Assembly (NCBI GenBank): GCA_022844125.1
Contig: JALHMI010000013.1
Coordinates: 124,001-188,000, forward strand
Direction of reading: 5' to 3'
Source of the DNA: Pirellulales bacterium
GTDB taxonomy: Bacteria; Planctomycetota; Planctomycetia; Pirellulales; PALSA-1355
Length of the DNA: 64,000 bases
The notes below the pieces were generated by a model. That model made no database searches, had not been told where the DNA came from, and worked only from the letters and a program-made list of their open reading frames with translations. Positions 34,298-37,455 of this stretch are shown here, one piece after another; positions within the stretch are counted from its first letter, which is position 1; each line of letters starts with the position of its first letter. Made by a program: the position numbers and the translations under genes.

Positions 34298-35716
34298 CTA
34301 CTTGATCTCGTAAACGATGCGGCCGCGCTGCTGGGCTCGGGAGATGCGGTCCGAAGCATACAGCCCGGCGAGGACGAATTCCACGCACGAGGCGCGCATG
34401 GCGGGGTCGCTCGAAGCGTTCACTTCGAAAGCCTTTTCCCAGGCCGGCGGTACGCGGGCGAGGCGATCGGCGTACTGACTGCTGGGGAGCATGTCGCCAA
34501 CTTCGATCTTTACGCCTTGCGAAAAAATCTCGCTGATCTCTTCCATGCCGTGCCGGTCGACGTACTCTTCAAACACGGTGCGAATCGCTTCGGCCAGGAT
34601 CGCGTCGAGCACTTGCCGCTCGTTCATCTGGTGGCTCCCCATCAGGTCGAGCTCCAGCTTGCCGAGCGCGGAACTGTAGAGATGTCCCAGGTCGCTGATC
34701 CGCGGCACGGCCGGCTTCTCGCCCAGCACGGCGGCCCGCTGCCGGGCGCTGGCGACCATCGTGCGATAGTTCGCGATGCTGAACCGCGCGCTGACGCCCG
34801 ACTGCTGGTCGATGTACTTGGACTTGCGAGCGGCGATGCTCATCTGCTCGATGATCTCGCGCATGAAGTAGGGCACGGCCACGGGGAAGTCGCCGCTCAA
34901 GTCGATTTCGGCCTCCTGCTCCATGATCTGGATACCCAGTTCGCGCTCGCGCGGGTAGTGCGTGTGGATGATCGAGCCGATGCGATCCTTGAGCTGCGGA
35001 ATCACCTTGCCGCTGCGGTTGTAAGTGGCGGGGTTGGCCGAGAACAGGATCAGCACGTCGATGTCGAAGTTCACTGGATAGCCGCGAATCTGCACGTCGC
35101 GCTCTTCCAGGATGTTGAACAGTCCGACTTGTACCAACTCGTCGAGCTCCGGCAGTTCGTTGATCGCGAAGATCCCCCGGTGCATCCGCGGGATGAGCCC
35201 GAAGTGCAGAGCTTCTTCAGCCGACATGCTGGTGCCGCCGGCCAGCTTGGCGGGATCGATCTCGCCGATGATGTCGGCGAACTTGGTGCCCGGCGCGAGC
35301 CGCTCGGCATAGCGGGCCTTGCGCGGCCACCAGGCGATCGGCACGTCCTCCTCGCTGACACTGGCGACCAGATCCTTACAGACGCGCGTGATGGGGTTGT
35401 AGGGATCGTCGTGCAGCGGCGCTTCGGGAATGTCGATGTAGGGGATTTCGTCGTCGAGGAAGCGGACGAGGGCCCTCATCAGCCGGCTCTTGCCCTGGCC
35501 CTTTTCGCCCAAGAACAGCATGTCGTGCTGGGCGATGATCGCCAGGTTGATCTCGGGGATCACGGTGTCGTCATAGCCGACGATGCCGGGGAACAGCTCT
35601 TCGCCGCCGCTGAGCTGGGCGATGAAGTTGTCGTAGATCTCTTGCTTGACGCTTTTGGAAGTCCAGCCGCTCGCACGGAGCTCGGCCAGGGTAGCGGGGC
35701 GGGTCGTGGTGGTCAT
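34298..35716 (-). CDS. AAA+ ATPase, magnesium-chelatase/MoxR-like
   Basis: A 472-residue AAA+ protein. Walker [12 protein letters not shown] at about 71-81, a Walker B-type segment [14 protein letters not shown] (Asn-Glu instead of Asp-Glu, which I believe is normal for this chelatase-like group), sensor-1 [14 protein letters not shown] and an arginine-finger region [14 protein letters not shown]. Starts at ATG 35716 ([10 protein letters not shown]). It is the first gene of the VWA pair. The combination is a two-part machine of the MoxR-VWA class; the substrate is unknown. Confidence 0.87.
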
Positions 35717-35852
35717 CAGGCGTGTCGAATCCCTGGGGCTGAACGTTCGCAAAGGACCGCGGATCGGGCCAAGGGATTATAGCGCGCGGGGCGAGCGGGC
35801 CAAGCTTCTGGCGGGCGGGCAAAGTTGAACAAAGTTCGGCTGGCCGTCAGGG

Positions 35853-36875
35853 CTACTTCTCCTGCGAGTGAATCTCTCCGCCGGCGCGGGTGGACATGGC
35901 GCTCCACAGATGCGGTTCGATCTCCTCACTGATGAAGCGGACGCTGCCGTCTCCAAACAGTACATTGCAGCCGCCCGGGTGGTCGGCCACCATTGAGTCG
36001 ACATAGCCGTGGTGGTGGTTGGGCGGATGGATTTCTCCCTCGTCGTCCTCGTGTTCGTGCCCTTCTTCGCCCTCGACTTCGTGGTCTTCCTGTTCGTGCT
36101 CGTGTTCGTGGAAGTGGTCCGGCCCGCTGTGCACGTTGATCTGCGGGGCAGCGCTCTCGCAATGAGCATGGGTGTAGTACGCCGTGGGGCAGGTGACCGA
36201 GCCGGGGAGGATGGCAACCCAGGTCGAGTCGCTATGCGAGGGGGTCTGCTCGCCCATGAAGATCGTGTGGCTGGTGCCGTCGGTGATGTCCTTGATCCGC
36301 AGCTTGCTATCGCGGTACAGCGGGCCGTTGGCGATCCTTGAGAGGTTCTCTTCCGTGTGCTCCCAGACGGCGATCTGGCCGGCGTTGGCGACGTAGGTGG
36401 CACGGGCGAGTTCCGCCAGCCGGTTGCCGTCATGATCGCGGACCTCGTAAGTGACGGTCTGATCACTGACCGAGGGGCAAAGGTACGTGCCAATCACCTG
36501 CTTCGAGGCGGCCACGTTGTTCGGATGCCAGGCCGGCACGTTCAGGTCGAATTGCCGCTGCTCGTTGGATCCTTCCAGGTAGGGCAGGATCTGGAACAGG
36601 CAAGTCCAGCCGGGATTGGCGTCGCCCGTCTCCGGATCGCGATCTCCCATTTGATCGCTGGGCTTGGTTTCATAGGCCGAGGGAAAGCGCCCGCGGGCGT
36701 CATGATGAGAGATCATCGCGATGCCGACTTGCCGCAAGTTGCTGCTGCACTGGGTGCGGCGAGCACTTTCGCGGGCGGCTTGAATGGCTGGCAGCAGCAG
36801 TGCGACGAGCACGCCGATGATGGCGATGACGACGAGCAATTCAACGAGTGTAAATCCGGTGCGCGTGCGTGACAT
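35853..36875 (-). CDS. DUF1559 prepilin-like protein with His/Glu/Asp-rich loop
   Basis: A 340-residue planctomycete DUF1559 protein. N-terminus GFTLVELLVVIAIIGVLVA is a type IV prepilin/pseudopilin cleavage and methylation signal. The body has the family PAIQAARESARR and a late CNVLFGDGSVRFIS. Residues about 254-289 (bases 36009-36116) form an unusual insertion: 11 histidines among 36 residues, with many Glu and Asp (EHEHEQEDHEVEGEE, then HEHEDDEGEIHPPNHHH). Such a loop could bind Zn, Ni, Cu or Co. The ATG at 36875 follows GGAGGG. Next to a His/Cys-rich membrane protein. Confidence 0.9.
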   Translation of the reverse strand: MSRTRTGFTLVELLVVIAIIGVLVALLLPAIQAARESARRTQCSSNLRQVGIAMISHHDARGRFPSAYETKPSDQMGDRDPETGDANPGWTCLFQILPYLEGSNEQRQFDLNVPAWHPNNVAASKQVIGTYLCPSVSDQTVTYEVRDHDGNRLAELARATYVANAGQIAVWEHTEENLSRIANGPLYRDSKLRIKDITDGTSHTIFMGEQTPSHSDSTWVAILPGSVTCPTAYYTHAHCESAAPQINVHSGPDHFHEHEHEQEDHEVEGEEGHEHEDDEGEIHPPNHHHGYVDSMVADHPGGCNVLFGDGSVRFISEEIEPHLWSAMSTRAGGEIHSQEK

Positions 36876-36963
36876 CGCTCGGCAACCCTCCCAACATGCT
36901 GAAGACACCGCCGAGCACGCGCAAGCAAGCGCAACACCGGCGGCAAGGAACAAGCAACTGCCG

Positions 36964-37356
36964 CTAAATGGCGGCGGCGGGAGGAGCGCGCGACTGGGCT
37001 AGACGCGCGGCGAGCGAACGGGGCGCGGCGGCAGGGCAGGGGAGCGGGTCGGGCGCGACGTCTTCGCTGAGCTCGACTTCGACGGGAGTCGCGGCGACGA
37101 CCGGTTGACCGGTGACGCGGCAGATGAAGCAGTCGTGAGCGGACGAAGTGCCAAGCAGCCGAGGACCCGATTGGTCGTCTGCCGGTGCTGAACCTGGCCC
37201 ATGACTGTGCGTGGTGCCATCGTGCGTGTGACAGCAAACGTCGGCCGTCGCGTGCGCGTGGACGTGCTCGTGCCAGAGCATGCCCAGCGTGCCGGCAGCC
37301 AGATAGGCCACCAGAACGAGCAGCGACAAGCGACGAGCTCGTGTGACGGGATTCAT
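36964..37356 (-). CDS. His/Cys-rich small membrane protein, DUF2946-like
   Basis: A 130-residue protein: one N-terminal helix (LSLLVLVAYLAAGTLGMLW) followed by a His/Cys-rich exported segment (HEHVHAHATADVCCHTHDG) and an HDCFIC motif near residue 75. An Ala/Pro-rich tail follows. The layout resembles DUF2946-type proteins linked to copper handling. It lies 88 bases upstream of the His-rich DUF1559 gene on the same strand, so they are probably co-expressed. The metal and role are inference. Confidence 0.7.
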   Translation of the reverse strand: MNPVTRARRLSLLVLVAYLAAGTLGMLWHEHVHAHATADVCCHTHDGTTHSHGPGSAPADDQSGPRLLGTSSAHDCFICRVTGQPVVAATPVEVELSEDVAPDPLPCPAAAPRSLAARLAQSRAPPAAAI

Positions 37357-37455
37357 GCGCGCGGTCCGACCAAGGACAGATACTCCCCCTCACTTTACCC
37401 GCGGGAGGCCTTTCCCGTCAATTCCGGGGCCCTAGCAGGCTGGCCAACGATTTCC

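Follow-up and report, generated by a model that had tools for sequence, protein, structure and literature searches.

CruR, the product of bp2923 in Bordetella pertussis, is a DUF2946 protein encoded by a small upstream open reading frame (uORF) that precedes bfrG/crtA. A CxxC motif and a C-terminal RAPP motif lie 45 residues apart in this peptide, a distance conserved to within 1-2 residues; expression of the downstream gene depends on RAPP and its response to copper on CxxC, and a stretch of cruR with more C than G starts the mapped rut site (PMC9426467). Arrest by CruR has been demonstrated in vitro (PMC12992588). CutF of Rhodobacter capsulatus, encoded by the uORF of cutO, is likewise an exported nascent metal sensor that has a C-terminal Pro motif and controls the next gene. 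The CruR authors also mention, without detail, a few homologues in Planctomycetes (PMC9426467). In this report we describe a candidate uORF of the CruR kind in a 64,000-nucleotide (nt) stretch of the genome of a Pirellulales bacterium (contig JALHMI010000013.1, positions 124,001 to 188,000; hereafter the window), where it precedes a gene for a pseudopilin of the DUF1559 family.

The DUF1559 family seems, from its published description, to be confined to Planctomycetes, and with 68 genes it makes up the largest paralogue group of Planctopirus limnophila, its function being left undescribed (PMC10632474). Work on Rhodopirellula baltica placed DUF1559 proteins among solute-binding proteins (PMC2754498), and the prepilin and SBP_bac_10 (DUF1559) proteins of Tuwongella immobilis were recovered mostly in subcellular fractions S2 and S3 (PMC8567305). 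The available passages of this literature report no metal binding by DUF1559 proteins, and the titles and abstract openings of papers naming DUF1559 or SBP_bac_10 show no metal topic.

The small ORF ahead of the pseudopilin gene

The pair lies on the minus strand and consists of an ORF for 130 residues (37356 to 36964), an 88-nt gap and the co-oriented DUF1559 gene (ATG at 36875, stop at 35853). A divergent GMP-synthase gene is found upstream of the small ORF, which may be the first gene of an operon. An earlier sequence-only reading of the locus had rightly located HEHVHAHATADVCCHTHDG and an HDCFIC motif in the 130-residue protein, which it took for the membrane partner of an exported metal-capture fibre or sensor. 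We propose instead that the small ORF is a metal-sensing, self-arresting uORF of the CruR kind and that it regulates the DUF1559 pseudopilin gene, a reading to which we assign a probability of roughly three in four (0.76). The features of the uORF and of the region behind it are the following.

36964..37356, minus strand: ORF for 130 residues, stop codon included, putative CruR/DUF2946-like arrest uORF (ORF call, weak full-length match to PF11162, relatives)
37216..37272, minus strand: His/Cys cluster HEHVHAHATADVCCHTHDG, residues 29-47, behind a hydrophobic signal-like segment (sequence, conservation of H29)
37120..37131, minus strand: CFIC, the CxxC motif, residues 76-79 (sequence; present in 39/39 matches of the A6 test described below, whose profile includes CxxC)
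36979..36990, minus strand: RAPP arrest-type motif, residues 123-126 (sequence; matches of the A6 test; PMC9426467, PMC12992588)
36964..37054, minus strand: 3' end of the uORF, rich in C, poor in G and possibly rut-like (C-G counts)
36876..36963, minus strand: intergenic region of 88 nt ahead of the DUF1559 start (ORF positions, folding test)

From a hydrophobic N-terminus the ORF runs through the His cluster, CFIC, 43 residues, RAPP and four further residues to the stop codon. Three traits of CruR uORFs are found in it, namely a CxxC motif (CFIC, residues 76-79), a C-terminal RAPP (residues 123-126 of 130) and, between the two, a spacing of 43 residues, close to the approximately 45 that are conserved to within 1-2 in that group. 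Since this is the layout of a CruR-type arrest uORF, the product is more likely a cis-acting regulator than the membrane partner of a fibre, and the preferred reading of the small ORF is that of a translation-arrest uORF resembling CruR (DUF2946-like). Of the residues outside the two motifs, H29 is invariant in the 6 rows of a first alignment of relatives (A1) and in 20 rows of a more diverse one (A6), and is conserved in at least 90% of the 148 rows of a third (A4), in which the invariance of CxxC and RxPP is by construction, the signature having been chosen by regular expression.

Relatives of the uORF and the genes behind them

A search with the single protein matched 6 genomes among 57 relatives, the source genome included; in the latter, two further weak places were found (E 0.26 and 0.32). 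Six of the 8 places recovered show the layout, with a spacing of 43 in five and of 42 in one. These six made up alignment A1, L034 and L038 being left out. The profile derived from A1 matched 123 of the 396 genomes of the order, and 153 distinct signature ORFs were identified in the flanks of these matches. The distance between CxxC and R[AG]PP is 43 residues in 81 of the ORFs, 44 in 32, 46 in 18 and 42 in 12; more rarely it is 45 (5 ORFs), 47 (4) or 50 (1), giving a full range of 42-50. RAPP or RGPP ends 1-11 residues ahead of the stop codon. When 12 motif variants were counted at a spacing of 41-47 in the same flanking DNA, R[AG]PP was found in 155 ORFs and each of the other eleven in 0-2.

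Signature ORFs were defined by a regular expression consisting of CxxC, 34-54 residues, R[AG]PP and a tail of no more than 25 residues, with at least 2 His; relatives lacking the motifs are not counted. Because A1 contains RAPP and the places lacking the motifs were omitted from it, the counts derived from it (the 153-ORF set and the 12-variant count) lean towards motif-bearing relatives. A test was therefore made with a profile cut before RAPP. This profile (A6) was built from 20 diverse relatives, each truncated 15 residues before the stop codon and thus devoid of RAPP, with CxxC retained; at E<=0.001 it gave matches in 139 of the 397 genomes of the class. The test set comprised the 39 best matches in genomes outside the earlier searches, down to E 1.1e-7.

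All 39 ORFs of the test set were closed, and 38 of them carry R[AG]PP near the stop codon, at a distance from CxxC of 43 residues in 36 of the 38 and of 42 and 44 once each. In 28 of the 38, a prepilin motif lies within 600 nt downstream. CxxC is not independently tested in this way, since A6 still holds it. A segment of constant length but variable sequence, linking a metal-type site to an arrest motif, would fit a nascent-chain sensor acting at the exit tunnel.

In the first set, 98 of the 153 uORFs are followed by a prepilin-type gene, whose motif lies 85-557 nt after the uORF stop. A Pfam scan of 95 of these 98 neighbours (the incomplete L089, L155 and L171 were omitted) gave 93 matches to DUF1559 and 94 to the prepilin motif. 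DUF1559 matches number 33 in the 6.4-Mb source genome and 22-129 in five other genomes; since DUF1559 makes up a small share of all genes, the adjacency of uORF and DUF1559 gene is not background. A search of the phylum with a 148-row profile (from A4) matched 149 of 392 genomes at E<=0.01. This search and one other late search led to 32 loci that were read, 28 of them with a signature ORF. By the script used, 20 of these 28 precede a prepilin gene, and the gene of L254, which the script overlooked, is DUF1559. Of the 28, 18 do not belong to the first set, and in 12 of the 18 the same script recognised a prepilin gene. Altogether, it is the pairing of uORF and prepilin gene, and not the His loop discussed below, that is the conserved part of the system.

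For the other 55 uORFs of the first set, the next gene was taken to be the longest ORF starting within 600 nt, an assignment that may be wrong. The 54 cases scanned (one lies at a contig end) include DUF58 (13), class III signal (Flp-like) genes (13), DUF1559 (3), PEP-CTERM (3), MerC (2) and CobW (1). Flp-like class III signal genes stand behind the uORF at L058, L060, L077, L082, L114 (checked alone), L133, L162 and others. Divergent pairs of uORFs with a common promoter region occur at L096, L110, L132, L133, L154, L162, L176 and L188; on one side there is a DUF58-type gene, and on the other mostly a Flp-like or DUF1559 gene. A relative of the uORF also occurs in a Blastopirellula metagenome-assembled genome.

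In the source genome, 2 of the 33 DUF1559 matches are known to be uORF-linked. At the second of these loci (contig C12, L204:9224-11713), the uORF is followed by a short DUF1559-type gene and by a small secreted PEP-CTERM protein that contains EEHGHFD; a protein of similar type is found in L196. The gene order in G098 is similar to that of this second locus, with ZepA further on.

The pseudopilin and its His-rich loop

The pseudopilin has these features.

35853..36875, minus strand: DUF1559 pseudopilin, 340 residues (ATG start likely; PF07596, prepilin and H-x9-DG motifs, AlphaFold2)
36834..36857, minus strand: prepilin motif GFTLVELL (PF07963, TIGR02532)
36009..36116, minus strand: His/Glu/Asp-rich loop, residues 254-289 (residue counts; predicted local distance difference test, pLDDT)
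35946..35981, minus strand: H-x9-DG motif in the C-terminal part of DUF1559 (TIGR04294, 40 bits, cut-off 19)

The open frame extends over 35853-36953; a TTG at 36953 is a possible alternative start, the ATG at 36875 being the likely one. The protein matches PF07596 (DUF1559) with 161.2 bits (cut-off 23.3), and its prepilin-like N-terminus, a trait that the sequence-only reading gave as known of DUF1559 proteins, is confirmed by matches to PF07963 (29.2 bits) and to the TIGR02532 prepilin model. H299, D309 and G310 are nearly invariant in the 95 rows of uORF-linked proteins. A search for fold relatives of the DUF1559 domain gave no match in the PDB at E<=0.001, the best being type IV pilins at E 0.3-0.4. 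Downstream of the gene, on the same strand, lies an AAA/Mg-chelatase-like gene (34298-35752) with no sign of membership in the unit.

That 11 His and many acidic residues fall within 36 positions at 36009-36116 had been noticed before, and the stretch was found at that very place on the minus strand: residues 254-289 contain 11 His, 12 Glu and 3 Asp. Only 9 of 20,000 shuffles of the DUF1559 protein reach 11 His in 36 residues. The earlier placement of the loop outside the conserved fold agrees with the AlphaFold2 model, in which the mean pLDDT is 90.3, the blocks covering residues 251-280 have values of 59-64 and residues 281-290, at the end of the His stretch, reach 93. Because pLDDT at 251-280 falls so far below the mean, most of the loop is, in the model, a disordered insertion on a well-folded domain.

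At least 6 His per 36 residues were found in 25 of 95 linked DUF1559 proteins and in 0 of 48 unlinked ones (Fisher p 1.3e-5, for sequences that are related to one another). The unlinked set consists of 26 proteins from the source genome, where 30 of the 33 loci were read, and of 22 from five other genomes, whose 29 best-scoring DUF1559 loci comprised 22 unlinked, 3 linked and 4 unread. A length cut of 180 residues was applied, which was passed by 95 of 98 linked loci and by 26 of 28 unlinked loci of the source genome. The 26 unlinked paralogues of the source genome belong to the same family and have the same prepilin start as the window protein, but none has more than 5 His per 36 residues; equal loops in DUF1559 genes devoid of the small neighbour were thus not seen in this genome.

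The loop nevertheless does not define the system, since the two linked proteins most similar to that of the window (62% and 57% identical) have the uORF and a short loop with few His. Less similar linked relatives do carry a His-rich loop. Absence of the loop in all close relatives, which the sequence-only reading would have taken as a sign of chance low complexity, is thus nearly, but not fully, what is seen. Counted from the prepilin motif, the His-densest windows start at around residue 50, 105-145 or 225-250, and these different starting places suggest that loops were gained repeatedly. In sum, the His loop is a variable embellishment and not part of the conserved core. A tree-corrected test of loop against pairing was left with 5 independent pairs and had no power. 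On a quick tree the linked DUF1559 proteins cluster, with 9 label changes against a mean of 31.6 in shuffles; the long-branch rows L088 and L078 leave parts of this tree unsure.

Metal, mechanism and competing explanations

Zinc is the likely metal of the window uORF, given that uORFs of the same family are found ahead of genes for ZnuA, ZigA and ZepA. In a genome outside the class (L256:2-1929, minus strand), the uORF immediately precedes genes for ZnuA (212 bits, cut-off 29) and for an ATP-binding cassette ATPase. The NCBI model identifies the uORF-linked CobW protein as ZigA, with 610 bits against a cut-off of 600. One uORF of G098 directly precedes all3515/ZepA, a Zur-repressed exoprotein, and in G006 ZepA is the second gene of what appears to be an operon headed by the uORF (273 and 242 bits for the uORF-linked ZepA/all3515 genes, cut-off 75). 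At L199, two uORFs, MerC, a CobW GTPase and a FUR-family regulator are found within 9 kb. ZnuA and ZigA, like ZepA, are low-zinc genes elsewhere, and for this reason a CruR-like polarity, in which metal switches the target off, is favoured. In Caulobacter, loss of zur altered two DUF2946 genes; for one of these the change missed the threshold set by the authors, but this gene heads a czr-zntA operon that proved Zur-activated in a reporter assay (PMC4176598). No zinc riboswitch has been described, according to the CruR authors (PMC9426467).

Clusters headed by the uORF (L195, L198, L199 and the 13 DUF58 cases) contain ZigA or MerC, His-rich lipoproteins, DUF58, a transglutaminase, a MoxR-type ATPase and a PF03773 permease, and they may represent an undescribed metal system.

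From the layout, the wide conservation, the fixed spacing and the synteny, all directly observed, we infer a mechanism that would run as follows. During synthesis of the peptide, RAPP would stall the ribosome near the stop codon, and the 43-residue spacing would then bring CxxC roughly to where the exit tunnel opens; the upstream His cluster may serve as a co-ligand. Binding of metal would cause the nascent chain to fold or to be pulled, thereby releasing the stall; after release, the C-rich 3' end may let Rho end transcription ahead of the DUF1559 gene. When the metal is scarce, the ribosome would stay in place, the downstream gene would be read and the exported pseudopilin made. In some lineages, this one included, the His/acid loop of the pseudopilin may bind metal at the cell surface, and the pseudopilin could in this way capture metal. 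A wider proposal, that self-arresting peptides exert zinc control throughout the phylum and that one DUF1559 branch consists of zinc-handling surface pseudopilins made only when no zinc is sensed, is offered tentatively, the odds standing somewhat against it.

A base composition that might suit a rut-like site is present in the 3' part of the uORF. In 78-nt windows, (C-G)/length is +0.24 at -60 and +0.18 at -30 for the window uORF; C exceeds G in 82% (-60) and 87% (-30) of the 153 uORFs, and the pilin genes lack this bias over the 60 nt that precede their stop codons. A further signal lies in the DNA upstream.

37363..37373, minus strand: candidate operator TTGGTCGGACC, with the palindromic core GGTC-G-GACC (upstream-region counts)

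The core occurs upstream of 31 of 151 uORFs (0.5 in shuffles) and the 11-mer TTGGTCGGACC upstream of 24 of 151 (0.06 in shuffles), counts that are non-independent inasmuch as they include related genomes and divergent uORFs with one common region. In the window the palindrome ends 6 nt before the uORF start; within the window alone, its copies are no more numerous than expected by chance. The source genome has two copies of the 11-mer against four of the reversed control, and 17 of the longer GGTCGGACCGC (control 14), three of which are at its two uORF loci. Upstream regions without a recognised prepilin gene contain the core more often (25/54) than those with one (6/97). The motif may be the operator of some regulator; we know of no regulator for it. 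A Zur-type box, for which the sequence-only reading had proposed a search, did not emerge: among the top exact palindromes of the 151 upstream regions no AT-rich box was prominent, GGTC-G-GACC being the one that was.

A number of observations weigh against the proposal of a metal-sensing arrest uORF. The likeness to DUF2946, suggested by the sequence-only reading, has been a useful lead and extends over the full length, but the match of the window ORF to PF11162 scores 17.2 bits and thus stays below the cut-off of 23.7; DUF2946 is matched at E<=0.01 by 58 of 148 alignment rows, the window's among them (best E 1.3e-8). Two of the 8 places found with the single protein, L034 (E 9.5e-4) and L038 (E 0.32), are without the motifs, 4 of the 32 later-read loci have no signature ORF, and 1 of the 39 matches in the A6 test ends in RDPP. 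For some uORFs, the gene that follows has no evident part in metal handling (DUF58, 13/54; class III signal, 13/54). The C>G bias follows in part from Pro codons. The identity of the metal depends on few neighbour genes; none of the scanned genes flanking the pair in the window is a known zinc gene, and MerC together with a permease related to SO_0444-type Cu/Zn exporters (83 bits, cut-off 300) complicates both metal and polarity. Finally, the intergenic RNA has a minimum free energy of -45.1 against a shuffle mean of -44.7 (z -0.10, one sequence). As the fold is no stronger than that of shuffles, a shielding hairpin of the CutF type finds no support, a 7-bp stem round the ribosome-binding region being nonetheless drawable by eye.

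Could the same mechanism have copper as its ligand? Relatives of the uORF, as exemplified by CruR and CutF, respond to copper (PMC9426467, PMC9973294), CxxC is able to bind this metal and one cluster has a permease of the SO_0444 Cu/Zn type (below cut-off). The named neighbours, however, are the zinc genes ZnuA, ZigA, ZepA and FUR plus CobW, and in the Pfam tallies the first downstream genes lack the copper families listed for CruR homologues. We hold copper to be unlikely. The two-gene link and the metal theme of the sequence-only reading are upheld and reach wider than the window, and copper is not favoured over zinc. An arrest peptide might also monitor export or membrane insertion, as SecM, ApdA and ApdP do, rather than metal. 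The products of the downstream genes are mostly exported pilins or secreted proteins (pilins, class III signal and PEP-CTERM proteins), the uORFs have hydrophobic N-termini, and RAPP-type peptides are described upstream of protein-localisation genes. This would leave CxxC, the conserved His and the zinc-gene targets unexplained; moreover, the Pfam tallies made for first downstream genes contain neither sec nor yidC families, and the gene behind the window ORF is DUF1559. An export monitor is accordingly considered quite improbable.

A metal-capture fibre with a stable His/Cys membrane partner acting as a protein would account for two His-rich, exported-looking products and for the higher His content of linked DUF1559 proteins. 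It does not account for a CxxC-RAPP segment of fixed length and variable sequence, for an arrest motif beside the stop codon, for ORFs of the same type before unrelated genes or for two such ORFs in one cluster (L199). The role of membrane partner, unsupported in an ORF with the layout of a CruR-type arrest uORF, was dropped, as a nascent sensor fits the fixed distance, the variable sequence and the varied downstream genes better; we regard it as very unlikely. Least credible is that the two genes carry low-complexity stretches that are neighbours by chance. The two linked relatives of highest similarity do indeed lack the loop, and tree correction leaves 5 independent pairs, so the loop taken alone is less settled; but for the pairing, recovered with 98 of the 153 uORFs of the first set and with 28 of the 38 of the A6 test, with loops in 25 of 95 linked against 0 of 48 unlinked proteins, chance is already disfavoured.

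A metal-sensing, self-arresting uORF ahead of the pseudopilin gene would, through this regulatory link, give one branch of DUF1559 proteins a testable function. If true, nascent-chain sensing of the CruR kind would also reach a new class of targets, many planctomycetes and, probably, zinc. As regards earlier descriptions, DUF1559 and pilin are absent from the main texts on CruR and on RAPP peptides; the pairing may be listed in the figures or supplements of the RAPP survey. The main text on CutF contains no DUF1559 and mentions pilin only in a legend, as a class of signal peptide; DUF2946, DUF1559 and pilin are all absent from the main text on ZepA (PMC10957091).

Among known systems, ApcA, ApdA and ApdP, which monitor Sec/YidC, resemble the window ORF in being encoded upstream of other genes and in having an arrest motif of the RAPP type at the C-terminus, but they precede protein-localisation genes. 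To our knowledge these three have no metal site. CutF differs in that an RNA stem-loop shields the cutO start and copper delays CutF export, whereas here the intergenic RNA folds at background level. The zinc exoprotein system of ZepA/all3515 touches the present one in that ZepA genes are among the targets of the uORF family; it differs in being described under Zur control (PMC10957091). The closest likeness is to CruR, for both are small exported-type ORFs before a regulated gene, with CxxC, a C-terminal RAPP, near-identical spacing (43 residues here, 45 in CruR), an intergenic gap and a 3' end in which C exceeds G. The differences are that CruR controls a TonB receptor across a gap of 162 nt and the window ORF would control a DUF1559 pseudopilin across 88 nt, and that the latter ORF has an extra His cluster, a probable link to zinc and a family score below the cut-off. 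The two would thus share the same working parts, with a new target, a new scale in planctomycetes and, probably, a new metal.

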